A stretch of 64,000 bases of DNA from contig JAPLKB010000058.1 of NCBI GenBank assembly GCA_026388275.1, positions 124,676 to 188,675 on the forward strand. The letters are read 5' to 3'. Below, piece after piece: positions 46,961 to 64,000 of this stretch. Source of the DNA: Pseudomonadota bacterium. Lineage in GTDB: Bacteria > Desulfobacterota > Syntrophorhabdia > Syntrophorhabdales > Syntrophorhabdaceae. The translations under genes were made by a program, and so were the position numbers. A model generated the notes under the pieces. That model worked only from the letters and a program-made list of their open reading frames with translations. It had not been told where the DNA came from and searched no databases. Within the stretch, counting starts at the first letter, position 1. Each line of letters opens with the position of its first letter.

Positions 46961-48727
46961 TTAGATTATTTTAAAAAGTTTCTTAAATCTCTCAGCTTTT
47001 TCACTGTAATTTTGATAGAGTTTCATATTGCCTTCTGTCCTATGGTTTTCCGCAAGCTCAAAGCACACTGTTATTCTTAAAGGAAAAAACGGGGCGTATT
47101 TATAAAGAAAATTATCAATATCGGTTAGTATTGTAATAGCCTCGGCAATTCTTCCTGTTGCCTTGTAAAATCTTGCCATTTCAATTTTATAAAACTGGTT
47201 GTAAGGGAAGAGATTCACTGCTTTAGTAAGATACTTTTCAGATAATCCGGACCTGGCGGTTTTGTAATAAAACTTTGCAATGCCGACATATATTTCACCA
47301 TTAACACTATTTAATTTTAGTGCCTTTAAGTAGTACTTTTCTATATCTTGCTTCAACTGATCATTTTTTAAGTTAGAAGATGACATATAAATCTGGTTTA
47401 AAAAATCGGCCATACTTTCCTGTACCATTGATGAACCGTAACTAAAAGTGGATGCGTACAATAAATACCTGTACGCACTGTCTATATCCTGACTTTTTAT
47501 GGTTTTCTTTGCTTTATCAAAATAATAAAAACCGATATATTGCGGAACAATCAAGGTTAAAAAGAAAATCAAAATTAAATAATTTGCAGCCCTTTTCATC
47601 CATGACTTGACTTCAATATAATTAATCCTGCTATCCGTTTCTGAAATTATTAAAGCAGATAGGGTATAAAATAATGCCTGAAAGGGTGGGGCAGGGAAGT
47701 TGTATTCATACATATTATGTAATAAAAAGGACAAAAGAGATATTTTAAGTAAAAAACGGGAAGAAAAGAATGGTCCTTTGAAAATTATAAAAAGAAAAAA
47801 TAAAAATAATATAAAGCCAACAAGGCCAAGCTCTATGAGTATATTGAGGAATATATTATGCGCATGCACGTGTGATTCCATATCGATAAGAAAAGGATTT
47901 GCTACTGTGTTAAATAAACCTCTTATAGAATTAATACCATGGCCAAACAATGGGGCATCCGAAAACAATTTGATGGTTTTTTCAAAGATGTAAAACCTGT
48001 AAAAAGATGATAACATGCCTCCCTCTGCAGAAGGTATGGATGGGGACTGTATAAGAAATCCTATAACGTACCTGAAAGTAATATATAAGGCAAAACCACT
48101 GAATATTGTTAAAAGTATACTTTTTGCCGTCTTTTTATCCTTTTTAATAAGAAAATATATTAAAATAACAATAAGGGCTAATAACATAGAAATCATTCCA
48201 GCCTTTGAATTTGATAAAAGATTTGAGAAAATCAAAAAAGAAGTCATATACAAAAAAACAGTTTTGCTTGATCTGTGATAAAGGTAAATGGATATAGGGG
48301 CAAGAGGTGTTAAAAAACCGGAGTAAGGATTTCTATTATAGAATAGACCAATAATATCATTACCGTTACATAACTGAAATATTCCAAAAATACCATTTAT
48401 AACACCACAATAAACAAGGACAAAGAGAAGTTTATTCCCCAGATCTTCATAATTCCTGAGTATTAAATACAATAACGCTCCGGAAATTAAGGAAGACGAA
48501 AACATTATCGAAGCCCATTTATCCTCAGCCCATAAGGTTGATGCTACAGCATAGAGAGAAAATATCAGGACAATAAACGCATCTTTTTTTATCTCTATTG
48601 TCTGAGAAAGCCATAAAAATAAAATAATTGTGAGAACAAAAAATATTAGAATCCCATTCGCCGGTGACAAATAACCGCCTAAAAGAGAAGCATATGCGGT
48701 AATGGATATGAGCATAATATTTTTCAT
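46961..48727 (-). CDS. O-antigen ligase/polymerase-like membrane protein with TPR tail
   Basis: The 588-residue protein has about ten membrane helices, and the periplasmic Wzy_C signature HAHNIFLNILIELGLVGF near residue 290, as in O-antigen ligases and PglL/TfpO oligosaccharyltransferases. After the last helix (about 390) follows a tetratricopeptide-type region of about 190 residues (YYLKALKLNSVNGEIYVGIA and more). Given the type IV pilin genes next door, O-glycosylation of pilins is an attractive inference; surface polysaccharide work is the alternative. It overlaps the YfhO-like gene by 4 bp (ATGA). Confidence 0.85.
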   Translation of the reverse strand: MKNIMLISITAYASLLGGYLSPANGILIFFVLTIILFLWLSQTIEIKKDAFIVLIFSLYAVASTLWAEDKWASIMFSSSLISGALLYLILRNYEDLGNKLLFVLVYCGVINGIFGIFQLCNGNDIIGLFYNRNPYSGFLTPLAPISIYLYHRSSKTVFLYMTSFLIFSNLLSNSKAGMISMLLALIVILIYFLIKKDKKTAKSILLTIFSGFALYITFRYVIGFLIQSPSIPSAEGGMLSSFYRFYIFEKTIKLFSDAPLFGHGINSIRGLFNTVANPFLIDMESHVHAHNIFLNILIELGLVGFILFLFFLFIIFKGPFFSSRFLLKISLLSFLLHNMYEYNFPAPPFQALFYTLSALIISETDSRINYIEVKSWMKRAANYLILIFFLTLIVPQYIGFYYFDKAKKTIKSQDIDSAYRYLLYASTFSYGSSMVQESMADFLNQIYMSSSNLKNDQLKQDIEKYYLKALKLNSVNGEIYVGIAKFYYKTARSGLSEKYLTKAVNLFPYNQFYKIEMARFYKATGRIAEAITILTDIDNFLYKYAPFFPLRITVCFELAENHRTEGNMKLYQNYSEKAERFKKLFKII

Positions 48728-51240
48728 TTACGCCTCTTAATAAAATAAATGGATAAAGAGATACCAATCAATGTCAAAAGTAGGCCTGAATAAAATGAGA
48801 CAGGAATATACTTAAAGACAACAACATGCTTGCCCTTTGGAGCTTCTATTGCCCTGAAAGCAAGGTTCGCATTATATATTTTGGTCTGTCTTTTATCAAT
48901 GTATGCCTTCCAGCCTGGATAGAATGTATCGCTTACATATAAAAACATATCTTTATCAGATTCATATTCCAGAACAACCTTGTTAGCCAGGTATGATACC
49001 AGCTTTACGTTGCCTCTATGCTCTATTTTAGTTTTTACAGGTTTTTGATTTCTCAATGTTGCTTTATTATCTTCCATATTGCCAATCTTGTTGTCTTTGA
49101 TAAGAGGATTGTTTCTTGTATCCTTTAAATCCGTGATCAATATTAATTCCTTTTTTAAATCAATGCTTTTGTCTTTAAGCTTTTCAATGGCCATTGTCTC
49201 ATTATTAACAAAATGAATTCTGTCAAAAAGAAGGAATCTTCCAGGACAAGGCAGGTATTCATAGAGATGCACCTTTTCTTTGCCGATAGCAATATTGCTA
49301 AGAATCTTGAATTTGCTGTTTTTAGTTTTATGAGATGTAATTAAATATCGGATGCCTGAAGCATCAATTCCCCTTTTAGCGTCTTCAAGGGTACCTGCAC
49401 CAAACATTGTGATTAAATAAATTTCATTTTGTTGTACCCTCAATACTTCTGCACCGCCCATAGTATATAGCCCGAAGATTGCGGCGTACGATGAAGACAG
49501 AATTCCCCGGTCTTTAGGAAATCTATCAAATTCAGCATTTGTTTTTGGAGTAACAAAATAACGCTCAGTATTTCTGACATTTGTAAGTTTTTTCGAAAAA
49601 TCATGATTTTCCATATAGGCTTTCCAGGGAACTGTAGAATAAAAGCCATAACTGGCAAGAAACAGATCTGCTGTTAATAAAAACAGTAATATTTGAAAAA
49701 CAATCTTTTTGTATTTTAACCTGAGATATAAAAGCAGCATAAAGCAGAACATAAATGAAAAAAAGAGAAACCTTTTCACATTATGGAGATTAAAATTAAT
49801 ATCATGATATGCAGGGGATTTTATCCCCATTTTATCTAAAAAATTATATATATTATCATTAAAAATGACTACATATCCCCAGATTATGACAAGCGCAAAC
49901 CCGAAATAAAATGAAATAGATACGATATTTTTAACTCGCACAGTATTTTCGGCCACACCTTTTTTTAAAAGATCAAAACCAAGGCCTGATGTAACTGCAA
50001 TAACAAAGAAAAATACAAAAAGAAATTTTACAGGATACCTTACGCTACTGAAAGGAGGGATATGATAAAGAAACCTATACAGCGGCGTATTACCTCCAAG
50101 GGCAAACAAGAACGATATAAAAATCAGTATTATAAAAACCCATTTTTTTCTGTCTCTCGATATAAAATAAAAAGAAGATAGAATAAATGGAATAACGCCA
50201 AGATATACTGTTTTCAACCATGATTGATTTTGCCAGTATTTTTGAGTATCAAGCATATAACCATAAAAATCAGGAAGAAAAAACTGTACAAAATCCTTCC
50301 ATGCAAAAGACCAGATTATTGCTTCTTTATATGTTAAACCGCTTGTCCTTATACTGTTTATTTTTAATTCATAAAAAGGAAGCAACTGGACTGAGGATAG
50401 AAGAATAAAAAGAAGTAAAACAAGGGATATGGCGATTACCCTTTCTTTTATTATTTTCCATAGAGTATCTTGCAAAAGTTTAAAGTCAGTCACTCCAGTG
50501 AAAACCGGGGTAAAGAACTTTTTTAAACATCTGCACCTATGCTTTTGCATAAATGACAGAAAAGAACAATTGAAACTGTTTTTCAGGAAGCTCCATATTG
50601 TGTTAATATTGCCCGAAAAAGCTTCATCGGTTATAAATAAATTAAGAAAGATCGTTATTATTATTAATACGAATATTGTCATAATAACAATTTCAGGCGC
50701 GCCTGCAAGAAACTGCATGGTAAGAGAAAGGGCTGTGTAAGCCAGATATTTTTTTTTCTTATTATCAAAATATTGAAGAAAAAACATAATAATAAGAGGA
50801 AACCAGGATACTGAAAAAAGATGTGGGAGCAGATTATGGACAGACATGAGGTATCCTGAGAGCATAAAAATAATTCCGCCTGCAAAGGAAGCTGTCTTCG
50901 AAGCTTTACAGTATCTTAAAAAAAGGCACGTAGTTATACCGGCAAAGTAAAAATGTAAAATAATCAACCAGTTCCATACAATATTGAATGGTAAAAAAAG
51001 ATATAAAATATGAGGCGGATAAAAAACACCTGGTTGCAAGGTTGCAAGCAGGGGGATGCCTGAGTAATTATAGGGGTTCCACAGGGGAAGTTGAAAAGAC
51101 TTGACGAGTTTGACCCATAGAATTTTTGGAGGTATAAAAAAGGCAGAAAGATCCCTTTCTATAAAAATATATTTTGAAGACAGCATAGGATTGAAATAGA
51201 TAACTGTAACGATAAAAAGTAAAAAATAACCGAATATCAT
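48724..51240 (-). CDS. YfhO-like integral membrane protein (putative glycosyltransferase)
   Basis: The 838-residue protein has about 12 membrane helices and a C-terminal extracellular-type beta domain, with RDLSAFFIPPKILW near the N-terminus and SDTFYPGWKAYIDKRQTKI at the end, both typical of YfhO family proteins, which are thought to move sugars onto teichoic or other surface polymers. It overlaps the O-antigen-ligase-like gene and follows a terminator, so the pair seems to form a separate transcript. There is no clear Shine-Dalgarno site before the ATG. Confidence 0.85.
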   Translation of the reverse strand: MIFGYFLLFIVTVIYFNPMLSSKYIFIERDLSAFFIPPKILWVKLVKSFQLPLWNPYNYSGIPLLATLQPGVFYPPHILYLFLPFNIVWNWLIILHFYFAGITTCLFLRYCKASKTASFAGGIIFMLSGYLMSVHNLLPHLFSVSWFPLIIMFFLQYFDNKKKKYLAYTALSLTMQFLAGAPEIVIMTIFVLIIITIFLNLFITDEAFSGNINTIWSFLKNSFNCSFLSFMQKHRCRCLKKFFTPVFTGVTDFKLLQDTLWKIIKERVIAISLVLLLFILLSSVQLLPFYELKINSIRTSGLTYKEAIIWSFAWKDFVQFFLPDFYGYMLDTQKYWQNQSWLKTVYLGVIPFILSSFYFISRDRKKWVFIILIFISFLFALGGNTPLYRFLYHIPPFSSVRYPVKFLFVFFFVIAVTSGLGFDLLKKGVAENTVRVKNIVSISFYFGFALVIIWGYVVIFNDNIYNFLDKMGIKSPAYHDINFNLHNVKRFLFFSFMFCFMLLLYLRLKYKKIVFQILLFLLTADLFLASYGFYSTVPWKAYMENHDFSKKLTNVRNTERYFVTPKTNAEFDRFPKDRGILSSSYAAIFGLYTMGGAEVLRVQQNEIYLITMFGAGTLEDAKRGIDASGIRYLITSHKTKNSKFKILSNIAIGKEKVHLYEYLPCPGRFLLFDRIHFVNNETMAIEKLKDKSIDLKKELILITDLKDTRNNPLIKDNKIGNMEDNKATLRNQKPVKTKIEHRGNVKLVSYLANKVVLEYESDKDMFLYVSDTFYPGWKAYIDKRQTKIYNANLAFRAIEAPKGKHVVVFKYIPVSFYSGLLLTLIGISLSIYFIKRRK

Positions 51241-51309: not shown

Positions 51310-51699
51310 TTACCAATTGGCGCCGCTAGTTTGTATACCTGCATAGCCGGTAGGTACGTTGGGTGCCGGGGACATAGAAAATTGAAACTCAAAACCCGAA
51401 ACCTTGATGGTAATTGTTTGTCCACCTATGGTAGGGGCATCTATACCTTGATAATCCACTCTGGCAAGAACGTCAGTCCATGTGTATGCTCCAGTAGTGC
51501 CGCCCATAGCCATTGTTGCGTATTGGATCATATTTGCGCCCCTTAAAGCTCCGAGAAATCCATTTGCTACGCCTCTTGCCGCATCTTTTTGAAGGTCTGC
51601 GAATTTTGGAACAGCCACTGCTGCAAGTATGCCGAGCACAATAATAACTACAATAAGCTCAATGAGGGTAAAACCTTTTTTATTTCTTAATAATTTCAT
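51310..51699 (-). CDS. Type IV pilin (prepilin), PilA/MshA-like
   Basis: This 129-residue prepilin has a short basic leader cut after Gly9 (NKKGFTLIELIVV), the conserved Glu5 of the mature form, a hydrophobic helix (VIIVLGILAAVAVPKF), and a globular domain with Gly-rich loops. It is the last pilin gene before a terminator and differs more from the pair at 51870 and 52333 than those differ from each other. An AGGAGG site precedes the start. Confidence 0.95.
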   Translation of the reverse strand: MKLLRNKKGFTLIELIVVIIVLGILAAVAVPKFADLQKDAARGVANGFLGALRGANMIQYATMAMGGTTGAYTWTDVLARVDYQGIDAPTIGGQTITIKVSGFEFQFSMSPAPNVPTGYAGIQTSGANW

Positions 51700-51869
51700 A
51701 CATTCCTCCTTTTAAATATTTTTTACATTTTGCATTATCATAAGATGCAAATCAATAATACCCTTTTGCCCTTGTTATACTTTTTACACCTCCTTCCAAC
51801 TCTTTTTTTATTAAATTCCAAGGAGGGTGGTGTTATAAAGGCTCCTCCTTGTATCCACATAATGTGTTT

Positions 51870-52244
51870 CTATCTTGATATGTTGCCAAGTGTAGTAGGT
51901 ACAACAGGAGTCGGCGATAACGTATACACGTAAGTGTTTCCACTGATTGTGACGCCAACAGTGGTATTTGCCGTTCCAAAAAATGTTACACCGTCGGACT
52001 GCACCTGATTTAAAATAACTCCCATAGTATACGAACCTGTTGTGTTGTTTAGTACCCTGTTCGAGAATACGATACTGTTCGCACTTCTCATCGCGCCGAG
52101 TAACGAATCTGCTGCAGCGTCAGCGGCATTTTTCCTCATATCAATATACTTCGGGACTGCAACTGCCGCAAGAATACCCAGAATGACGATAATAATAATG
52201 AGTTCGATGAGTGTAAAACCTTTTGAATGCTTGGATATGTTCAT
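51870..52244 (-). CDS. Type IV pilin, duplicate A
   Basis: The 124-residue prepilin (leader MNISKHSKG, cut before FTLIEL) is almost the same as the neighbour at 52333-52707: by eye 111 of 124 residues agree. The mature helix and the whole C-terminal GVTISGNTYVYTLSP region are shared; differences cluster in the leader, mid-domain and before the last turn. This is a recent tandem duplication. The hairpin (CAAGGAGG/CCTCCTTG at about 51817-51850) after it lacks a T-run and is not a sure terminator. Confidence 0.95.
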   Translation of the reverse strand: MNISKHSKGFTLIELIIIIVILGILAAVAVPKYIDMRKNAADAAADSLLGAMRSANSIVFSNRVLNNTTGSYTMGVILNQVQSDGVTFFGTANTTVGVTISGNTYVYTLSPTPVVPTTLGNISR

Positions 52245-52332
52245 TTTATAACTCCTGCCATTTTTATACTTTTTTCAAATTCTACTTGTATATACATATA
52301 TTGCAGCATATTACAGGCAAGTTTCATCTAAA

Positions 52333-52707
52333 CTATCTCGATATGTTGCCAAGAGTGTTTGGTACATTAGGCTGCGGTGATAATGTATACACATAAGTAT
52401 TCCCGCTGATTGTTACGCCCACAGTGGTATTTGCCGTTCCAAAAAATGTTACCCCGTCGGACTGCACCTGAGCAAGAATATCCGCCATTGTATAAGCACC
52501 TGTTGTGTTGTTAAGCACCCTGTTTGAGAATACAATGCTGTTTGCACTTCTCATCGTGCCGAGTAATGCATCTGCCGCTGCATCGGCTGCATTTTTCCTC
52601 ATATCAATATACTTCGGGACTGCAACTGCAGCAAGAATGCCGAGTATAATGATAATAATAATGAGTTCAATGAGTGTAAAACCTTTTGAATGCCTGATTA
52701 CATTCAT
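52333..52707 (-). CDS. Type IV pilin, duplicate B
   Basis: The start at 52707 gives a 124-residue prepilin with leader MNVIRHSKG cut before FTLIEL; a longer open frame reaching 52782 is not expected to be translated because AAGGAGG lies just upstream of 52707. It is about 90% identical to duplicate A. The hydrophobic N-terminal helix contains a run of isoleucines. Intergenic 52708-52937 is AT-rich and probably carries its promoter, though I see no -24/-12 site. Confidence 0.95.
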   Translation of the reverse strand: MNVIRHSKGFTLIELIIIIIILGILAAVAVPKYIDMRKNAADAAADALLGTMRSANSIVFSNRVLNNTTGAYTMADILAQVQSDGVTFFGTANTTVGVTISGNTYVYTLSPQPNVPNTLGNISR

Positions 52708-52937
52708 ATTAAAAACCTCCTTGATTGATCTACGTATTATATTATATAAAAGCAATAAATATACCACAATATTATGTATCATTAATAAAATTGTTAATTA
52801 TCTATTATGAAGACGGAAATCAAGTAAATTTGAGCAGTTGTTTGAGCAATATTTCCATAAAGTAAGAGTGTTGTATAAAGCTATTGATAAAAAAACATCA
52901 CAATTTTTGTAGTTATGCTACAAAATATGGAGGTGAT

Positions 52938-53624
52938 TTAATATCTCCTGATTTTCAATGACAGAACAAAACCGGATATAAGAGAAGATAAAAAGAGCAG
53001 TAGAAACAGGAACGGAAATTTAACGGCATACACAAGCGGGGTAAGCATAAACCTTGATAAGATACGTAATCTGCAGTCTTTTATTATAAAACTGGCGGCT
53101 AAAGGAGAATAACGATAATAAAATTCAACAAAAATTGTCCCGATCCTGTTTGTAAGCAGATACCTGTCTCTGAATTCCCTCAGAGCAATAACATGAGGAT
53201 CAAGGTAACTACCGTAAGCAGCCGTTGCTATAAAACACCCACTGCCTGTGCCGAAATTTATTTTCGGTAGCGTTGTAGGCGCTTGTCCGAAGGTATCCAT
53301 AGTATATATATAAGTATAACTTTTGATAGTTACATCCAAAGTCCTGTCCCCGCTCACATTATATACGGCACCTTGGATATTTGCGTTCCCGGCTACATCA
53401 CCCATTGTATATGTAGCTGTATTGTTAGATAATATCCTTGAAGAATGGATCATGCTATTGGAACTGCGAAGAGTTCCGAGTATACTCTCGGAAACTCCAT
53501 CTGCAGCGTCTCGTCCCAGATCTATATATTTTACAACTGCAACTGCCGCGAGAATGCTTAAGATTACAATAATAATTATAATTTCAATAAGAGTAAAACC
53601 TTTTGAATTTTTTACGCAAATCAT
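52938..53624 (-). CDS. Pilin-like protein with C-terminal CFI-box and membrane tail
   Basis: Residues 1-125 are a type IV pilin (MICVKNSKG cut before FTLIEI, then helix). At residue 130 a CFI-box-like motif begins ([20 protein letters not shown], then [12 protein letters not shown]), followed by [12 protein letters not shown] and a hydrophobic segment ending in a basic KIRRY tail. CFI-box modules normally end other secreted proteins; on a pilin, with a second membrane span, it is unusual. It may be a tip or anchor pilin, or be processed at the box. It follows the PilR-like gene. Confidence 0.85.
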
Positions 53625-53695: not shown

Positions 53696-55051
53696 CTATT
53701 CAGATAATGTTTCCACATTGTATTTTTTTACCCTGTACCACATGCTTCTCTCGGTAATACCAAGAAGTTTTGCTGCTTTTGCCTGATGCCCTTTTGTTCT
53801 GTTTAAAGCATCCGTTATCATTTTTCTTTCTACTTCAGAGATTGCGTCATCCAGGGTTTTACCAGATGAAAAAATATCCTGTACCGAAAAATCACCGCGC
53901 AGGTAAAGCGGTAAGTCGTCTATTGTGACAATTCCTCCCTCACACATGATGGATGATCTCTTTATTACATTGATAAGTTCTCTAACATTGCCGGGCCATT
54001 TGTGTTCTATCATGATTTTTTTAACCGCAGACTCGATCTTTATAAACTCTCCTGTCTCTTTTGAAGCATCAAGTAAGAAACGGTCTATTAAGTGGTTTAT
54101 GTCTTCCTTCCTTTCCCGTAGCGGTGGAATCATAATATGAATCTGAGAAAGCCTGTGAAACAAATCTTCCCTGAATTTTCCGCCTTTTATTTCTGTTTCG
54201 AGAATTCTGTTTGTAGTTGCCATTATTCTCAGATCTACCTTCCTGTTTTTTAACCCCCCTAATCTTTCAATTTCCCTTGTTTCAATGACCCTTAGAAGCT
54301 TTGCCTGAAGATAAGGGCTCATCTCACCAATTTCGTCAAGGACAATGGTACCATTGTCGGCTAACTCAAATTTTCCCTGCTTTGTCTGAGAAGCACCGGT
54401 AAAGGCTCCCCGCTCATAACCGAAAAGCTCGCTTTCAAGCAGATTATCCGGTATTGAAGCGCAATTTACAACGACGAACATACCCTTCCTCTTTGATAGC
54501 CGATGGATTAGATGGGCAATGACTTCTTTACCAACGCCAGTTTCTCCTGTAATTAAAACAGATATATCCTTTTCAGCAATTTTATCTGCAGTTCTGAATA
54601 TTTCTTTCATTGAAGAAGATTTGCCTATTACTCCATAATGTTCCGTATCAGAAAGTGCTTCCTCTTTCGTGCGCTCTATCGCTTCCTCAATCCCTTTTTT
54701 ATGCAGAACCCTTTTTACTATGATCTTCAGTTCATCAAGGGCAATCGGTTTAATAAAAAAATCAGTTGCACCGCGTTCTATCGCTTCCATGGCGTTTTTC
54801 TTTGTTCCAAAAGCTGTAATAATAATGATAGGAGTGTTAACCTTTTTCTTAATCTCATCAATGGCAGTTAAACCATCAACGCCGGGGAGTTTAATATCCA
54901 TTATAATAAGAGCAATATTCCTATTAATGCTTATATATGCATCTTCATAGGATTCATAAGAGGATACGGCATAGCCTTCCCCTTTTAACGCCTCTTCAAG
55001 GAAAAATCTGACGCCGCCATCATCTTCAATAATAATAATCTGTTCGTTCAT
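53696..55051 (-). CDS. pilR: PilR-type NtrC-family response regulator
   Basis: The 451-residue protein has a receiver domain (phospho-acceptor Asp52 in IIMDIKLPG), AAA+ domain (Walker A GETGVGKEVI, sigma-54 loop GAFTGASQTK, GTIVLDEIGEMSP) and Fis-type helix-turn-helix at the C-terminus (GHQAKAAKLLGITERSM). It overlaps the kinase gene by 4 bp and lies directly before the pilins, so control of pilin expression through sigma-54 is likely. I did not find consensus -24/-12 sites before the pilins. Confidence 0.9.
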   Translation of the reverse strand: MNEQIIIIEDDGGVRFFLEEALKGEGYAVSSYESYEDAYISINRNIALIIMDIKLPGVDGLTAIDEIKKKVNTPIIIITAFGTKKNAMEAIERGATDFFIKPIALDELKIIVKRVLHKKGIEEAIERTKEEALSDTEHYGVIGKSSSMKEIFRTADKIAEKDISVLITGETGVGKEVIAHLIHRLSKRKGMFVVVNCASIPDNLLESELFGYERGAFTGASQTKQGKFELADNGTIVLDEIGEMSPYLQAKLLRVIETREIERLGGLKNRKVDLRIMATTNRILETEIKGGKFREDLFHRLSQIHIMIPPLRERKEDINHLIDRFLLDASKETGEFIKIESAVKKIMIEHKWPGNVRELINVIKRSSIMCEGGIVTIDDLPLYLRGDFSVQDIFSSGKTLDDAISEVERKMITDALNRTKGHQAKAAKLLGITERSMWYRVKKYNVETLSE

Positions 55052-56076
55052 TTAGAACCCGGTAAAGTTATGGTAAATGTTGTTCCATTGTTACTTGTTT
55101 CTACGTTTATGTCCCCACCATGCATTCTGATATTTCTGATGCTTATAAAAAGCCCGAGGCCTCGTCCACCTTTTCTTTTTGAGAAAAAAGGTTTAAATAT
55201 TGCCTCAATGTCTTCGGTTTTGATGCTTGAACTCTTATTGTATACCAGAATTTTCAGGATATTATTACATTTTGTTTCTACTTTTACATATCCGCCTGCA
55301 GCTTCATGTTGAAAAGCGTTCTTCAATAAATTATTAACAGCCTGAAAAATCCTCGTTTTATCTCCTCTGAAAATGATATTTTCAGTATCCGTGACGAAAT
55401 CGCATTTAACATGGTCGAATTGTTTGTGTAAACTATCCATTGATTCTTTAATGATCGTATTTATATCAAACTCTTCATGTTCAATTCCGTCATCAGTAAA
55501 ATCAAGCAATTCTTTTGTAAATATATCTATTTTTTTTGCAGAATCCAATATTGCGTTAACATATGACATTGCCTGTTCCCCGATCAATTTTTCTTTTAAA
55601 AGCTCACTCATGCCCGTTATGGTGTTAAGAGGGTTTCTTACTTCATGTGCCACCATAAGGGACATGTAGCCCAGGGGTACGATGTAATCAAGTCTCTCAA
55701 TATCTTTTTTCATATCGCTGTGCGTTTTTTCTCCCCCAAACTTATTATGCTTTGCCATTTCTGTTAGTTTTTCTATAAGAGTATAAACCTCCATCATTTG
55801 ACCTTTTTCTTTTCTGAATTCGCCGAACCTTACAATATGCTCGACTTTTTTCACGAGATTTATAACAGGTTGAGTGATGGCCGATACAGCTAAGAATGAA
55901 CAAAATGCAGAAAAAAGAGAGACTATAAAAATAGAAATAAAATAACTGTCGTAAAAATGTAATGCGCTTCTATATCCGATCATAGCCGAGAGGATGCTTG
56001 TAAGAAACACAACAAAAGGTATAATGGTATTTAAGCTATACCGTAAGTTCTTTGGATCGTTAAATATACTTTTCAT
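55048..56076 (-). CDS. pilS: PilS-like membrane sensor histidine kinase
   Basis: The 342-residue protein has two N-terminal membrane helices around a short loop (about residues 15-70), a HAMP-like linker, the phospho-accepting His in LMVAHEVRNPLN, and the ATP-binding N box NNLLKNAFQHEA, the F box IFKPFFSK and G2 GGRGLGLF. It overlaps the NtrC-type partner by 4 bp. Name PilS rests on position within the pilus locus; it has fewer helices than the Pseudomonas enzyme. Confidence 0.82.
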   Translation of the reverse strand: MKSIFNDPKNLRYSLNTIIPFVVFLTSILSAMIGYRSALHFYDSYFISIFIVSLFSAFCSFLAVSAITQPVINLVKKVEHIVRFGEFRKEKGQMMEVYTLIEKLTEMAKHNKFGGEKTHSDMKKDIERLDYIVPLGYMSLMVAHEVRNPLNTITGMSELLKEKLIGEQAMSYVNAILDSAKKIDIFTKELLDFTDDGIEHEEFDINTIIKESMDSLHKQFDHVKCDFVTDTENIIFRGDKTRIFQAVNNLLKNAFQHEAAGGYVKVETKCNNILKILVYNKSSSIKTEDIEAIFKPFFSKRKGGRGLGLFISIRNIRMHGGDINVETSNNGTTFTITLPGSK

Positions 56077-56079
56077 TGT

Positions 56080-57301
56080 TTATCCTCCCCTTAAAGCCTG
56101 CATCATGTTCCACCAGGGCATCATTACGGCAAGGGCTAAAAATAATACTATAACAGACAGAACAATCGTCATAATAGGTTCTATCCATGCTGACAAACGA
56201 TTGATTGAATATGTAACCTCCCTGTCATAATGTATAGATACTTCTCGAAGCATTTCTTCAAGTGAACCCGTATCTTCGCCTGTTGATACAAGGTGTATGA
56301 CAAGTGGTGGAAATATTTTGCTGTCTTTTAAAGGTTTTGATATGCCCTTACCTTTTTCTATCTTACCCTGTATTTCAATAATCTTCTGGGCGATATATTC
56401 ATTCCCGACTGTTCTTGCAACTATTTCGAGGGTCCTCATGATAGGAACGCCTGCCCTTACCATAATTCTCAAACATATAAGCAAAGCGGCTCATACATAT
56501 TTTTAATATTATCTGTCCGATAAGAGGGATCTTTAATTTATTTTTATCATAAATCAATTTACCTTTTTCAGTTCGTATATATAATATCAGCGCAGTAATA
56601 ATGGCGCCAATGGCACTGAAAGTATATATGCCATATGATTGAACCAGTGTATTGATAAAAATCATGATTTTTGTAGGAAGCGGGAGCTCTACTTTGGAAG
56701 CCTTAAACAGGACTGCAAAACGTGGTATTACAAATGTTACTATCACAAAAAAAGCCACAACAATTCCGCTTATAACCATAATCGGATATCGCGTGGCAGA
56801 TTTAAGCATCTCTTTTGTTTTCATTTGAAATTCCAGAATGCCTGAAAGCTTTTCAAGGACATCTTCGAGTAAACCGCCCATTTCACCAGCCCTGACCATA
56901 CTTATGTACATTTCGGGAAATACACCTTTATGTTTTTCAAGGGCATCGGAAAAACCCACACCTTTATCAATATCCTGATAAATGTTCCTTATTATCTGCT
57001 TTAACCTTGCGTTTGTGGTCTGTTCTTCAAGTGCTTTAAGACCGGATATAATTGGAATACCTGCTTTAACAATAGTCTGGAGTTGTCTGGTAAAAAAAAT
57101 AAGGTCGTCATATTTAACCTTCTGGTATCGAGCAAAAAATGCCTGCAAATCTAAAGAGCTGGTCTTTTCTTCTTCGACCGATACGGGAAGCAAGCCCATA
57201 CTGTCTAATTGTATGTAGACTATGCCTCTGCTCTCCGCTTCCATAATACCCTGTATCAGAGAACCTCTGTCATCTCTTGCTCTGTAAGCGAATTTCCCCA
57301 T
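56080..57301 (-). CDS. pilC: PilC/GspF-type inner-membrane platform protein, one-base frameshift
   Basis: The first frame (57301 to about 56465) carries the first T2SF domain (YDDLIFFTRQLQTIVKAGIP, ARAGEMGGLLEDVLEKL-like) and two membrane segments, reaching ICMSRFAYMFEN. There the family continuation (MVRAGVPIMRTLEI, LVIHLVSTGEDTGSLEEML and the last helix) lies in the next frame, ending at 56080. One extra T (plus-strand A, 56464 or 56465) causes the break; without it a normal 406-residue protein results. The base is not in a long homopolymer. Either an error or true loss of the platform protein. Confidence 0.85.
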
Positions 57302-57302
57302 T

Positions 57303-59000
57303 TTAATCTATCTTTGTTGTATTTAAAGCTTCCTCAAGAGTAGTAATGCCGGCAATAGCTTTTCTCACTGCATCATCCTTCATTTCCATCATACCACGTG
57401 CCTTTGCAGCTTTTTTGATGACTTCACTGGAAGATTTGTCGACAATGAGCGCACGTATGCTATCGTCAACAATGAGGACTTCGAACACGCCCGTCCTTCC
57501 TTTATAGCCGGTATATTTACATACAGGGCATCCTCTGCCTCTGTAAAGGGGGATATTTTCTTTAATATTTATACTATCAAGAACTGATCTGGCAGGCATA
57601 TACTCTTCTTTGCAATCCGGGCATATTTTTCTTAATAGTCTTTGTGCAATTACGCATGTTAATGAGGAGGCTACAAGGAAAGGTTCAACGCCCATTTCCA
57701 CAAGCCTTGTAGCAGAGCCTGCCGCATCATTTGTATGAAATGTTGAAAGCACGATATGACCTGTAAGAGCTGAATGGACTGCGATTGTTGCAGTTTCCCT
57801 GTCTCTTATTTCGCCTACCATTATAACATCGGGGTCCTGTCTTAAAATTGCTCTTAAACCTACATCGAAAGTAAGTCCGGCTCTTGGGTTTACCTGGGAC
57901 TGTGAAATTGATTCGATAGTATATTCAACCGGATCTTCTATGGTAATAATATTCTTTTCCGGTGTATTGATATAGTTGAGTATTGCGTAAAGTGTAGTAG
58001 ACTTACCGCTGCCTGTGGGGCCTGTAGAAAGAATAAAACCGTATGGTCTTTTTATGACGTTTTTGATTTTTTCTTCATCATCGGAAAAAAAACCTATCCT
58101 GTCTATACCATAAAGAGCAGCACTTTTATCTAGCATTCTCAAAACAGCCTTTTCCCCGTATATTGTCGGATATGTGGAAACTCTTATACCGAGGTCTTTT
58201 GTACCTTCTTTTATATCGAACCGTCCATCCTGGGGGATTCTTGATTTAGCAATATCCATGCCCGCTACAATTTTTATTCTCGATACTATAGGAAGAAACA
58301 TTTTTTTCGGCGGCGCCGGTATTTCTCTCAACTTTCCATCTATCCTCATCCGTATCCTTAATGTTTTTTCGCCGGGCTCTATATGAATATCACTCGCACT
58401 ATCAGCTACTGCCTGTGTAAGAAGACTATTTACAAATCTTATTACAGGCTCCTCATCACCGGATTCAAAAGTGATTTTTTCCTCTTCCTCTTCCTCTTCC
58501 TCTTCCGGCTTAACAGTTGCTTCTTCCTCTTTCATTTTTTGAAGAGTCTCTTCCACAATTGTTTTTACGCCATAATATTTTTCAAGAGCTCTTTTCATCT
58601 CTCCTTCGGTAGTTATGCATGGATCCACTTCCATTCTTACAATTCTTGTGACCTCATCCATTGCGTTTATATCCAGAGGGTCAACCATGGCGAGTTTTAA
58701 GACATTAAAACGCCTCTCAAAGGGAATTATGAGATAATTTTTTGCAATATCCTCGCTGATTAACTTCACCAGTTCCTTGGGTATGTCTTTTTCGTCGAGA
58801 TTAACTATTGGTATTCCAAGCTGTTTGCTGACCGTATCAATAATATCCTTTTCTGTAAGAAGGCCCATCTTGATAAGTACTTTGCCAAGTCTCTCACCGT
58901 ATTTTTTTTGTTCGACAAGCGCTTTGTAAATATCTTCCTCTTGTAATCTTTTAGCTTCTATAAGGATTTCGCCCAGCTTTTTTCTAATCCGTTGAATCAT
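57303..59000 (-). CDS. pilB: PilB-type pilus extension ATPase
   Basis: The 565-residue protein has the N-terminal MshEN-like domain (LGEILIEAKRLQEEDIYKAL, twice-similar segments), then a linker with a run of nine glutamates, and the secretion ATPase core: Walker A TGPTGSGKSTTLY near residue 330, Asp and Walker B boxes (DPDVIMVGEIRDRETA), STFHTNDAAG, and four cysteines of the zinc site (CPDCKEEY and GCPVCKYTG). It powers pilus assembly. It overlaps pilT by 4 bp and is 1 base from pilC. Confidence 0.95.
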   Translation of the reverse strand: MIQRIRKKLGEILIEAKRLQEEDIYKALVEQKKYGERLGKVLIKMGLLTEKDIIDTVSKQLGIPIVNLDEKDIPKELVKLISEDIAKNYLIIPFERRFNVLKLAMVDPLDINAMDEVTRIVRMEVDPCITTEGEMKRALEKYYGVKTIVEETLQKMKEEEATVKPEEEEEEEEEKITFESGDEEPVIRFVNSLLTQAVADSASDIHIEPGEKTLRIRMRIDGKLREIPAPPKKMFLPIVSRIKIVAGMDIAKSRIPQDGRFDIKEGTKDLGIRVSTYPTIYGEKAVLRMLDKSAALYGIDRIGFFSDDEEKIKNVIKRPYGFILSTGPTGSGKSTTLYAILNYINTPEKNIITIEDPVEYTIESISQSQVNPRAGLTFDVGLRAILRQDPDVIMVGEIRDRETATIAVHSALTGHIVLSTFHTNDAAGSATRLVEMGVEPFLVASSLTCVIAQRLLRKICPDCKEEYMPARSVLDSINIKENIPLYRGRGCPVCKYTGYKGRTGVFEVLIVDDSIRALIVDKSSSEVIKKAAKARGMMEMKDDAVRKAIAGITTLEEALNTTKID

Positions 59001-60064
59001 TTATTATCACCTGTCACCTGATGTTTGATGTAATCTGCCATACTTGCCACCGCATATGCGTCTTCCCATTTTATAATTCTCCTGCTTAAAAGATCATTGA
59101 GGTTCTGTTCCATGGTATGCATTCCATATTCCTTTCCGAGTTCAATGGAAGAATATACCTGATAAGTTTTTCCTTCCCGTATCATATTTCTAACAGCAGG
59201 TGTAATAATAAGCACCTCAGTTGTTGGTATTCTGCCCTTTATGTCGATTCTCTTTAAAAGTTTCTGCGTTATTACGCCCTGAAGCGTAATGGAAAGCTGG
59301 GAGCGAATCTGTGGTTGCTGGTAAGGGGGAAAAACGTCTATAATTCTGTCTATAGTCTGGGAGGCACTTGTAGTATGCAAAGTAGAAAATACAAGATGAC
59401 CTGTTTCGGCTGCAGTAATGGCTGCCTGCATGGTTTCAAGGTCCCTCATTTCGCCGATCAGTATCACATCAGGGTCCTGTCTTAATACACGCTTTAGCGC
59501 ATTTGAAAAAGACAGCGTATCTTCACCAACTTCTCTCTGGGAAATAATAGATTTCTTTGGCTTATAGACGTATTCTATGGGATCTTCAACTGTTACCACA
59601 TGAAGAGATTGTTCTTCATTAATCATGTCAATCATTGCTGCAAGAGAGGTTGATTTTCCGCTCCCTGTCGGCCCAGTAACCAGAATCAGGCCATTTGGTT
59701 TTCTTGTCAGATCTTTTAAGATGTTCGGCAAATTTAAATCTTCCAACTTGGGAATGTTCACGGGGATAAGCCTTATGGCGAATGCAATTATACTTTTTTG
59801 AAAATATACATTCACCCTGAAACGGGCTTTCCCTTTTAATTCGTAGGCAAAATCAAGCTCCCGGTCATTAAAAAAAGCATTTTTTTTTGCAGAATCTTCA
59901 ACAAGTTCATCAAAAAAGGATTTAAGGTCTTTCTCGGTTAGATAAGTTGCGTGGATATAAGAGAGCTCGCCGTCAATCCTTATGGAAGGCGGGATGCCCG
60001 CTATAAGATGCAAATCCGATGCGCTTTTTTCAATCATAAAATGCAGCATATCTTTAATATTCAT
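58997..60064 (-). CDS. pilT: PilT-type pilus retraction ATPase
   Basis: The 355-residue protein is a complete PilT: the N-terminal PAS-like fold (ASDLHLIAGIPPSIRIDGEL), Walker A GPTGSGKSTSLA near residue 131, His box HTTSASQTIDRIIDVFPPYQ, Walker B DPDVILIGEMRDLET, and the C-terminal retraction motif region (AVRNMIREGKTYQV). It disassembles the pilus. It overlaps pilB by 4 bp; a paralogue lies 207 bp upstream. Confidence 0.96.
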   Translation of the reverse strand: MNIKDMLHFMIEKSASDLHLIAGIPPSIRIDGELSYIHATYLTEKDLKSFFDELVEDSAKKNAFFNDRELDFAYELKGKARFRVNVYFQKSIIAFAIRLIPVNIPKLEDLNLPNILKDLTRKPNGLILVTGPTGSGKSTSLAAMIDMINEEQSLHVVTVEDPIEYVYKPKKSIISQREVGEDTLSFSNALKRVLRQDPDVILIGEMRDLETMQAAITAAETGHLVFSTLHTTSASQTIDRIIDVFPPYQQPQIRSQLSITLQGVITQKLLKRIDIKGRIPTTEVLIITPAVRNMIREGKTYQVYSSIELGKEYGMHTMEQNLNDLLSRRIIKWEDAYAVASMADYIKHQVTGDNK

Positions 60065-60271: not shown

Positions 60272-61831
60272 TTATACAAAAAATATATTATTAAAGGCTA
60301 TTTCTTTTATGTCATTATCGAATAACAACATATAACATTTAACGGTTTTCCCACTATAAACCTTAGAAACAGGTATTGTCAATGTATGCCATTCGTTATC
60401 TTTGATGAGCTCCAGGGGGATCTTAGGGATTTCAATATCTTCGTTGTTGTCTGACACCATTCTGAGTCTGAATAAATACCAGGCTTTTTCAACTTTAGTC
60501 TCCAGAATTTTATAGGAAAGGTTGCAAAAACTCTTTAGAGAAAAAATATTTTTTTTGCCGTTTAAAATAGTATAATCGGCAATAAAATTAAGATCTTCTT
60601 TAAGAGGCCCCCTGTCTCTGAATAAAAGCCCTATAGGCGTATCAAAAAGCATACCTGATGCATCAAAAAAGCTGAGGTTATTAAGACTGAAATCAGCCTC
60701 ATAAAGAATCATTTCTTTTTCAAGTTTCAACGGTCTAATGCCGGTCAATGTTTGATTTTTATTAGGTGTGGTTTCAAAAATACGTTCAATAAAGCCTTTT
60801 TCTTTTGAGGATTCAAAAATCATTTCAGGCATATCTATCAACCCATTTTCATAAAGCTTGAGAAGTGATTTATCCATGGAAATCATGTCATCTTTCTTTG
60901 AAATATCCATTATAGAAAATATTTGATGGACTTTATCTTCTTTAATAAGGGTTTTTATTGATTGAGTTGTAGTCATGACCTCGCATGCACATACAAAGCC
61001 TTTACCATCTGCTCTCTGAACAAGCCTTTGAGATACAACGCATTGAAGCAGCTGGGATAGTTGATTGCGTATCTGGTTTTTTTCATATTCAGGAAAAAAA
61101 TCAATTATTCTATTGAGAGTTTGGACTACGTTTATCGTGTGAAGAGTTGAAAATACAAGATGACCTGTTTCGGCCATTTCAATTACGATCTTCATCGTTT
61201 CGCTGTCTCTGATCTCGCCGACAAGTATCACATCAGGATCTTCTCTGAGTACCCTTTTAAGAGCTGACTGAAAAGATTTTGTATCTTTACCTACTTCACG
61301 TTGGCTTATAATGGATTTTTCAGATTTATATACAAATTCGATGGGGTCTTCAATCGTTACAATATGGCAGGCGCGTTCTTTATTGATTAAATCAATCAAG
61401 GATGCGAGGGTAGTTGATTTCCCGCTACCAGTGGGACCAGTGATGAGGACTAAACCATTTTGTTTTTTTGTGAGTTTTTTTAATATCTCCGGAAGGCCGA
61501 GTGCGCTGAAAGAGGGAACTTTATTTGGGATGGGTCTCATAACGAGCCCTATGTTTCCCATCCTTAAAAAGGCGTTTATCCTGAATCTCCCAAGTCCGTT
61601 TATTTCATAGCTGTAATCAAGTTCTTTTTTCCCTTCGAAGGTTTCGTACTGCCATGCCGTTGCCGTTGTTTTTAATAGACTGTTTATTTCTTCACTTCCA
61701 AGGACAACATCATTTAGTTTAATAATGTTTCTATTGTTCCCTAACGGCGGCAGATCCTTGAAAAAAAATATACTTTTTACTCCTTGAGAAATACCCTTTT
61801 CAACTATTTCTGTTAAATTGACTTTCTTCAA
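60272..61831 (-). CDS. PilT/PilU paralogue with an extra C-terminal beta-rich domain
   Basis: Residues 1 to about 350 form a PilT-like ATPase (Walker A GPTGSGKSTTLA, Walker B DPDVILVGEIRDSET, HTINVVQTLNRIIDFFPEYE, and a C-terminal part with SIKTLIKEDKVHQI). From about 350 to 519 an added domain follows, rich in beta-strand-like stretches with ASGMLFDTPIGLLFRDRGPL, WYLFRLRMVS and NEWHTLTIPVSKVYSG; its style recalls carbohydrate-binding or PilZ-like beta sandwiches but I cannot place it. PilT proteins normally stop near 350-370. The tail could link retraction to a ligand or partner. It overlaps the TPR gene by 32 bp. Confidence 0.85.
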   Translation of the reverse strand: MKKVNLTEIVEKGISQGVKSIFFFKDLPPLGNNRNIIKLNDVVLGSEEINSLLKTTATAWQYETFEGKKELDYSYEINGLGRFRINAFLRMGNIGLVMRPIPNKVPSFSALGLPEILKKLTKKQNGLVLITGPTGSGKSTTLASLIDLINKERACHIVTIEDPIEFVYKSEKSIISQREVGKDTKSFQSALKRVLREDPDVILVGEIRDSETMKIVIEMAETGHLVFSTLHTINVVQTLNRIIDFFPEYEKNQIRNQLSQLLQCVVSQRLVQRADGKGFVCACEVMTTTQSIKTLIKEDKVHQIFSIMDISKKDDMISMDKSLLKLYENGLIDMPEMIFESSKEKGFIERIFETTPNKNQTLTGIRPLKLEKEMILYEADFSLNNLSFFDASGMLFDTPIGLLFRDRGPLKEDLNFIADYTILNGKKNIFSLKSFCNLSYKILETKVEKAWYLFRLRMVSDNNEDIEIPKIPLELIKDNEWHTLTIPVSKVYSGKTVKCYMLLFDNDIKEIAFNNIFFV

Positions 61832-63023
61832 GAATTTTTAACCTCTCAATAACTTTGTTCTTTTCCTCTATCTTGCCGCCTTCTCGTAGGTAAAACCTGT
61901 AATATTTAATAGCCTCTTTAATTTCGCCCATGTCGTCCTTTATAAGCGCAATAGATAAATATGTTGAAGGGTTTTTGTTGCCTCTCCTGATCAAATTCTC
62001 AAGGACTCTCGAAGCCTCATCATACCTCTTTTGATGACGCAAAAGGCCGGAAAGGTTAATATAGGCTTCAGCTCCGTCCTTATCCATGTCGATCGCTTTT
62101 TTAAAATATTCTTCTGCAAGTTTCCTGTCTCCTTCTCTCATAAAAATGATGCCTGTATTGTTATATGCTTTTGTGTAATCAGGTTTTTTTTCGAGAATCC
62201 TTCTAAAATACATCAATGCTTCGTTTGCATTACCTTCTCTCATGGCAATAACGCCAAGATTATTCAAAACCTCTATGTTATTAGGCTGTTCTGATAAAAT
62301 ATTTAAATACAGCTTCTTCGCCTCCTTTGTTCTGCCTTTTTCTGTTTCTAAAAGCGCTTCGTTGTACATAGACATAATTCTTTCTTCATCAACCTTCATT
62401 ACAACAACCTTCGTGTGCTCCATTGATGCCGAAGGAATTTCTTTTCTCGGATTGACAGGCAAGGCGGAGGTATTTACGTAGGTACTCTTTAACCTGGCAG
62501 TTTTCTTTTTCAGAGCTGGAATCTCTTTAGGTTCAAGGCCTGTTATTTTTCCATGAACTGTTTCTGTGGCATTTGTTTCTAAGTTACGAGACTTATTTTT
62601 CAATGTTTTATCTTCGGATTTTGCATTGAAGGATGTTTTTGCAGAAGTTTCAGTTTTTTCATTTCCCTTTGTATTTGCTTTTTCCTCAATTTTTGTTGTT
62701 GCTCCAACCTTGTCAACAGGTTTTAGTTCCGTATCAGGTTCTTTCACTTCAGCAGGTTGTGCCTTTTCAACTGTCTTTTCTACCCGTTGCATGACGGGCT
62801 GCCCTTTTGAAGCAAATATTTTTGAAGAAGGCTGAATTGGTTTTGTTCTAAGCATCATAGGCAGAATAGAAACAAGTAAAACGATACCTGTTATGGCTGA
62901 CAGAGTGATATAAAAAATGTTTTTATTCTTTGTATACACAGTCTGTATACTGCTCCGGACATCGGGTTTGACCTTTTTCCTCTCCTCCTGAGCCTTTTTT
63001 AGGGCATCAAGGATAAGACTCAT
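61800..63023 (-). CDS. GspB/MshN-like membrane-anchored TPR protein
   Basis: The N-terminus MSLILDALKKAQEERKKV is the opening of GspB/ExeB-type proteins, then one membrane helix (about residues 34-58), a long charged low-complexity periplasmic linker (many K, E, T) and at least five tetratricopeptide repeats (NIEVLNNLGVIAMREGNANE, PDYTKAYNNTGIIFMREGDR, and so on). In MSHA and type II systems such proteins help the secretin reach the outer membrane. It overlaps the secretin gene by 4 bp (ATGA) and the PilT paralogue by 32 bp. Confidence 0.85.
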   Translation of the reverse strand: MSLILDALKKAQEERKKVKPDVRSSIQTVYTKNKNIFYITLSAITGIVLLVSILPMMLRTKPIQPSSKIFASKGQPVMQRVEKTVEKAQPAEVKEPDTELKPVDKVGATTKIEEKANTKGNEKTETSAKTSFNAKSEDKTLKNKSRNLETNATETVHGKITGLEPKEIPALKKKTARLKSTYVNTSALPVNPRKEIPSASMEHTKVVVMKVDEERIMSMYNEALLETEKGRTKEAKKLYLNILSEQPNNIEVLNNLGVIAMREGNANEALMYFRRILEKKPDYTKAYNNTGIIFMREGDRKLAEEYFKKAIDMDKDGAEAYINLSGLLRHQKRYDEASRVLENLIRRGNKNPSTYLSIALIKDDMGEIKEAIKYYRFYLREGGKIEEKNKVIERLKILEESQFNRNS

Positions 63024-64000
63024 TGGGAATCCTTTCCATATATTATCATCGGTGTTAAGAATATGACAAGTTCACTTCTATATGAATAATCTGTCTTTGT
63101 CTTAAAAAAACTTCCCAACCCCGGTATGGACATGAGGCCCTTTATACCCTGCTCATCATTTGTTGAAAAGTCTTTTATAAGTCCGCCTATTATTACAGAT
63201 TCACCCTCCCTCACCTTAACAAGGGTGTCTACCTCTCTCACAGAAAGAACAGGTGCGGTGACCTTTGTGCCGCCTACCGTTGACTCAGCAGTACGGATCT
63301 TTTCAGTAAGCATTGGGTGTATATTCATGACTATATTACCTATATTGTCTATCTGAGGCACGACATCGAGAACAAGCCCGATAGTTACATATTTTGGTGT
63401 TGAAGTGGTTACCGGAGGGTTGCCGGAAGATACCGTTGTTGTTGTTTCGAAGAACACATCTTCAGTTGCGACTTTTATAACAGCTCTCTGGTTATTCAGG
63501 GTTGAGATCTTCGGGCTTGAAACAATGTTTATTTTGCCCTGTGTTCTCAGAAGGTCAATAAAAGAATCAAATCTACCTCTTCCTACACCGAAACGTATAT
63601 ATTGTTCAGGGGCTGTAGGCAGCGTTTTCAAATTAGGTATATTAAAATATTGTGTTTGAGTAGTTACAAGTGCCTGTTCGATATTTAATGCAAATCCTTG
63701 CCATTGGGCACCGATAAGGCTCCAGTTGATACCTTCCTTTGATTCTTCGGTGAGCAATACTTCAACAATCTTGGCTTCTATCATTACCTGTCTTTGAACG
63801 GTTCCCTCAACCGTTTCAAGGAAAAGTGCAATATGTTTTAAATTTTTCGGGTAATCCATAACCATGATTACCGAAGCCTGCCTGTTTAAGATAAATTTTC
63901 CCTGGGGAGAAAGGAAAGTTTTTATATTGTTTTCTATATCTCTCCATAAATCAGTTTCCGTACCCGTTGATACTACAATATTTGCCTGACCGCCGCCGGT
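63020..64000 (-). CDS. mshL: Type IV pilus secretin (MshL/PilQ-like), C-terminal part
   Basis: The frame stays open to the right edge, so the start lies outside. The visible 327 residues include the end of an N-domain (LWRDIENNIKTFLSPQGKF, VQRQVMIEAKIVEVLL) and the secretin barrel domain: GRFDSFIDLLRTQGKINIVS, SPKISTLNNQRAVIKVATE, PQIDNIGNIVMNIHPMLTEK, VREGESVIIGGLIKD and the final SELVIFLTPMII. This is the outer-membrane ring through which the pilus passes. It leads the long minus-strand pilus operon. Confidence 0.93.
   Translation of the reverse strand, partial: TGGGQANIVVSTGTETDLWRDIENNIKTFLSPQGKFILNRQASVIMVMDYPKNLKHIALFLETVEGTVQRQVMIEAKIVEVLLTEESKEGINWSLIGAQWQGFALNIEQALVTTQTQYFNIPNLKTLPTAPEQYIRFGVGRGRFDSFIDLLRTQGKINIVSSPKISTLNNQRAVIKVATEDVFFETTTTVSSGNPPVTTSTPKYVTIGLVLDVVPQIDNIGNIVMNIHPMLTEKIRTAESTVGGTKVTAPVLSVREVDTLVKVREGESVIIGGLIKDFSTNDEQGIKGLMSIPGLGSFFKTKTDYSYRSELVIFLTPMIIYGKDSQ

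Follow-up and report, generated by a model that had tools for sequence, protein, structure and literature searches.

In the 64,000-nucleotide stretch of Syntrophorhabdaceae DNA analysed here (the window), an operon for an MSHA-like type IV pilus encodes a PilT-like ATPase that is prolonged by a C-terminal domain, predicted to be a beta-sandwich of the carbohydrate-binding-module (CBM) / galactose-binding-like type, and that is gained and lost together with the adjacent plain PilT as a two-gene cassette. The observation of a tailed PilT-like ATPase, made originally in a sequence-only reading of the DNA, is confirmed: the tail is real, and it is undescribed in the libraries and papers searched. 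Architecture, fold, pairing, operon and cassette-like loss were all obtained computationally. As to the role of the tail, we tentatively favour, at a little below an even chance, a module for docking or regulation, borne by an accessory PilT paralogue whose working partner would be the plain PilT in the cassette.

The Tailed ATPase and Its Core

The open reading frame (60272-61831, reverse strand) encodes 519 amino acids from a TTG start, which is common to all eight orthologous loci checked, and this start lies within the last bases of the upstream TPR gene, the overlap being 32 bases in the window and 26-32 bases in the loci listed; the conserved start codon together with the overlap argues for a real, translationally coupled gene. 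The PilT/PilU-family model TIGR01420 matches residues 6-338 with 410.8 bits (curated cut-off 319.1), thus placing the protein in this family along the whole ATPase core and bearing out the complete PilT-like core that had been proposed from the letters; the tandem arrangement of two PilT genes (61831-60272, then 60064-58997), noted there too, is likewise correct. N-terminal PAS-like and RecA-like domains are present; Walker A (GPTGSGKST), Asp box, Walker B (DVILVGEIRD) and His box are all intact in the window's protein, and the AIRNLIRE-like motif reads SIKTLIKE. In the full-length model the core closes with a helix at 345-354, followed by a low-confidence linker and then by beta-strands from 402 to 518. 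Solved PilT proteins (Geobacter metallireducens PilT4 6OJX; 2GSZ/2EWV; 5ZFQ) share the complete core over residues 8-341 (best chain E 3e-90), but the best-matched full-core chains, of 356-390 amino acids, stop after it and none carries the 165-residue C-terminal domain.

Sequence and Distribution of the Tail

Searched alone against Pfam and NCBIfam, the tail gave zero matches at E<=1, and all 17 available tails together gave only two weak Pfam matches, the best being SGBP_B_XBD at E 0.03 in one member; none of the 17 falls by sequence into a curated CBM family. A profile search of the PDB returned only 3F95, a beta-glucosidase, at E 0.25 and 1TZA at E 1, neither of them a strong match. The earlier suggestion of a beta-rich tail of no known family is therefore upheld by the lack of Pfam and NCBIfam matches and by the all-beta AlphaFold2 model described below. 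No papers on PilT with carbohydrate-binding or C-terminal extensions were found.

The tail is kept in every orthologue found, namely in 16 proteins from three families of the anaerobic order Syntrophorhabdales (loci from Syntrophorhabdus and Syntrophorhabdaceae included), with 40-64% identity to that of the window; because of this conservation it cannot be a chance read-through, and an artefact of read-through or frameshift is ruled out. The tailed orthologues are mostly 515-542 amino acids long, those of loci L018 and L024 being truncated by contig end and contig start, respectively. Occurrence is confined: the tail was detected in 17 of the 46 Syntrophorhabdales genomes and in nine of 395 genomes sampled from the phylum, all nine belonging to the same family or order as the window, and a scan of 84,980 species based on a single peptide pattern yielded 11 loci, most or all of them in genomes of Syntrophorhabdales already found. 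Search for the same tail on other proteins, which had been proposed as a check, gave no second copy in the window's own genome at E<=10 and, within the phylum, only the nine matches mentioned. A 532-amino-acid frame that could pass for another tailed PilT (L083:1546-3099, genome G045) was rejected: it is a PilT-like ATPase whose additional part of about 150 residues is N-terminal and MshEN-like, as in extension ATPases.

Predicted Fold

AlphaFold2 applied to a 17-row tail alignment (row 1 starting at protein residue 336) produced a disordered stretch followed, from about residue 386 on, by an all-beta domain in which block pLDDT is 77-94. The fold search, likewise suggested beforehand, gave mostly CBMs and discoidin-type domains as the best solved Foldseek matches, with E of about 1e-3 and modest TM-scores of 0.3-0.45, partly because 50 disordered residues were counted in the model. 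Re-comparison with VIA-align, which trims these residues, brought CBM28 3ACF (Z 10.7, rmsd 3.6 over 136 residues), CBM29 1OH3 (Z 10.4, rmsd 2.8 over 113 residues) and numerous other CBMs including CBM4 and CBM27, while the highest row was a viral turret protein (Z 11.0). On the strength of a confident model and best matches that are mostly CBMs, the tail is assigned by predicted fold to the CBM / galactose-binding-like superfamily. The likeness to CBM modules (CBM28 3ACF, CBM29 1OH3, CBM4-2, CBM27) extends over 112-136 residues with Z of about 9-10.7 and rmsd of 2.8-4.1, but identity is about 10%, and those modules, which belong to enzymes that degrade polysaccharides, are secreted and sugar-binding whereas the tail is fused to a cytoplasmic ATPase. 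Secreted sugar-binding proteins are where the CBM fold is commonest.

The MSHA-Like Pilus Operon

The operon (Table 1) runs from genes for a PilM-like, a PilO-like and a small protein through the MshL-like secretin, the TPR protein, the tailed PilT, the plain PilT and the MshE-like ATPase, and continues with the platform protein, the histidine kinase, the sigma-54 regulator and the pilins. The same order, within the reach of each contig, is found in loci L039, L040, L043, L048, L059, L062, L063 and L064, the last of them showing no kinase or regulator between platform protein and pilin. With the Vibrio MSHA operon it has in common an MshL-related secretin, a TPR protein, an MshEN-type extension ATPase, a platform protein and pilins; unlike it, the window's operon also encodes a PilT pair of its own as well as a histidine kinase and a sigma-54 regulator, and its secretin, although scoring best with MshL among secretin families, attains 214 bits where the family cut-off is 250. 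For this last reason the operon is named only "MSHA-like".

Table 1. Features of the tailed PilT gene and of the surrounding operon in the window.
Feature	Position	Strand	Basis
Four type IV pilins	51310..53624	-	
Histidine kinase and sigma-54-type response regulator	53696..56076	-	
Platform protein (MshG/PilC-like), frameshifted in the assembly	56080..57301	-	Comparison with homologues
Extension ATPase (MshE/PilB-like) with MshEN and c-di-GMP-binding motif	57303..59000	-	PF05157; NF053729 55.5 bits vs 38
Plain PilT partner, 355 aa, second cassette gene, sister clade of the tailed paralogue	58997..60064	-	TIGR01420 469 bits; tree
Predicted CBM / galactose-binding-like beta-sandwich of tailed PilT, about residues 386-519	60275..60676	-	AlphaFold2, Foldseek, VIA-align; conserved in 17 loci
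Flexible linker of tailed PilT, about residues 355-385	60677..60769	-	pLDDT <50 in full-length model; poorly conserved in alignment
PilT/PilU-family ATPase core of tailed PilT, residues 1-354	60770..61831	-	TIGR01420 410.8 bits; motifs; model
MshN-like TPR protein; 32-base overlap of its end with the start of tailed PilT, likewise in relatives	61800..63023	-	
MshL-like secretin, 513 aa in full, runs past the window	63020..64000	-	TIGR02519 214 bits vs cut-off 250

Several further peculiarities of this region were noted. The platform protein gene carries a single-base frameshift near 56440-56460, its homologues being single open reading frames of about 407 amino acids; either an error in the assembly or recent pseudogene formation may account for it. 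The type IV pilin at 52938-53624 (reverse strand) possesses a C-terminal CFI-box-CTERM domain (NF041770, 94 bits vs 40), an unusual combination. Three more pilins lie at 51310-52782 on the same strand, and the near-identity of two of them (51870-52244 and 52333-52782) suggests a recent duplication of the major pilin. The pilins are followed at 46961-51240 (reverse strand) by genes for an O-antigen-ligase-like protein, whose end is TPR-like, and for a membrane protein of the YfhO family; large membrane proteins of similar type stand after the pilins in several relatives, which makes pilin glycosylation likely.

Pairing, Phylogeny and Joint Loss

A tree of 54 ATPases separates the 16 tailed proteins (100/99) from their plain neighbours (100/99) as two clades, which are joined at 99/95 away from the housekeeping PilT and PilU clades; the housekeeping PilT-PilU pair of the window's genome resides on a separate contig (C64). 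Orthology of the tailed protein to PilU is thereby ruled out, and the topology suggests that the gene was duplicated long ago within the lineage and that one copy gained the tail. An untailed PilT of another pilus operon (L061:13850-14929, contig C9 of genome G001) appears as sister of the whole tailed clade, its position being unsure because of a long branch.

The plain PilT directly follows the tailed gene in every locus with sufficient contig, the tailed gene was never seen outliving its partner in the loci examined, and the relatives' operons that lack one of the two cassette PilT genes lack both, the remaining operon genes being kept. The tail is thus an optional addition to the MSHA-like pilus, not one of its essential parts, and the cassette as such is dispensable for keeping the operon. 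One case of loss is preserved as a scar: in G001, which belongs to the same genus and has an MshE 93% identical, residues 1-67 of the tailed protein run straight on into the final part of the plain PilT (L073:12759-13116, contig C26), corresponding to a single deletion of about 2470 bp that took the tail with it. Mapped on the MshE tree, presence of the cassette requires four changes.

Within the pair the two copies evolve unequally. Among nine representatives mean identity amounts to 52% for the tailed ATPase, 68% for the plain partner and 44% for the tail domain, the partner being better conserved than the tailed ATPase in all 36 comparisons. Departures from motifs, counted by eye, concern the first His-box histidine (missing in seven of 16 tailed proteins), the Walker B glutamate (replaced by aspartate in two) and Walker A (deviating from GxxGxGKS in seven). 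Altogether about ten of the 16 tailed copies bear catalytic-motif substitutions that are absent from the partners, all 16 of which retain the His-box histidine, the Walker B glutamate and the Walker A form. Faster divergence and motif loss restricted to the tailed copy are what one would expect if it were an accessory subunit next to a conserved motor.

Possible Roles of the Tail

The sequence-only reading had suggested that the tail might sense a cytoplasmic ligand such as a cyclic nucleotide or a sugar and so gate retraction. For the cyclic nucleotide no support was obtained: none of the 17 tails has a Pfam match to a cyclic-nucleotide-binding or PilZ family, no such cyclic-nucleotide-binding domain occurs among the fold matches listed, and a PilZ (c-di-GMP) domain is rejected also by the absence of the combined RxxxR and [DN]xSxxG motif from all 17 tails. 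A sugar stays a possible candidate because the modelled fold is of CBM type, and a sensor that gates retraction on binding a sugar, a sugar nucleotide or a lipid-linked sugar precursor such as the donor for pilin glycosylation is the main rival of the docking or regulatory reading, albeit an unlikely one. Among the best fold matches are true sugar binders (CBM28, CBM29, CBM4, CBM27), and the O-antigen-ligase-like and YfhO-like genes after the pilin cluster could glycosylate pilins; however, such glycosylation-type genes are found also in operons without the tail, the identity to CBMs is as low as stated above, and the most conserved residues of the tail look mostly structural (Gly, Pro, core aromatics), and a conserved aromatic platform could not be shown. 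Moreover, protein binders of the same fold family, APC10 and neuropilin b1, are among the Foldseek matches, and for this reason the shared fold is insufficient to indicate a sugar ligand. The more specific proposition that the cytoplasmic CBM-type domain senses a sugar or sugar-nucleotide ligand and thereby switches retraction of the dedicated MSHA-like pilus is rated lower still; if true, it would couple pilus dynamics to carbohydrate or glycosylation state.

Two further explanations dispense with a ligand. The tail might have a purely structural task, giving shape to the tailed hexamer or to its mixed or stacked complex with the plain PilT, with no partner outside; its never being seen without an adjacent plain PilT and the joint loss of both genes agree with this, but the long low-confidence linker suggests, in a single-chain prediction, that the tail does not pack against the ATPase core of its own protein, and we consider this possibility improbable, on a par with the ligand sensor. 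Somewhat more doubtful is the idea that the tailed paralogue retracts the MSHA-like pilus independently, as a full motor and second PilT, with the tail as dispensable decoration. The window's copy, which retains all ATPase motifs and scores well above the TIGR01420 cut-off, may indeed be a full motor; yet motifs drift in many tailed orthologues and never in the partner, and identity of about 44% between tails of distant representatives implies that the tail is under selection.

According to the preferred docking or regulatory reading, a duplicated PilT would have turned into the accessory subunit of a dedicated retraction pair for the MSHA-like pilus, in which plain PilT would be the conserved motor and the tailed paralogue would act with it in the manner of PilU with PilT. 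The CBM-type beta-sandwich would hang in the cytoplasm on its flexible linker and most likely tether the motor to a further component of the pilus base or give access to a regulator; dependence on PilT, docking in the cytoplasm and regulation of retraction are what we infer for this pair. Known pilus motors offer analogies. In both V. cholerae and P. aeruginosa the action of PilU depends on PilT (PMC6762196). In the V. cholerae MSHA system PilT is required also to start pilus extension, and two-hybrid tests show binding of both PilT and PilU to MshE and MshG (PMC9815625). Like the tailed protein, PilU (9N32) is a second PilT-family ATPase beside PilT, from which the accessory role is proposed by analogy, but the two fall into separate clades, and in the cassette the tailed gene comes first and PilT second. 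A C-terminal extension on a pilus motor ATPase is likewise known for cyanobacterial PilB, where it binds Hfq; that protein, however, is an extension motor of another lineage, and the passage on it describes no folded domain of the tail's type (PMC12288463).

Significance

Regulation of retraction motors is poorly understood. Extension motors carry c-di-GMP-binding MshEN domains, and in the family libraries and solved PilT chains searched no added domain was found on a retraction motor. The tailed PilT, kept with its dedicated partner across the order and lost only as a pair, lends itself naturally as a test case both for the role of a regulatory domain on a retraction motor and for the coupling of two retraction ATPases.
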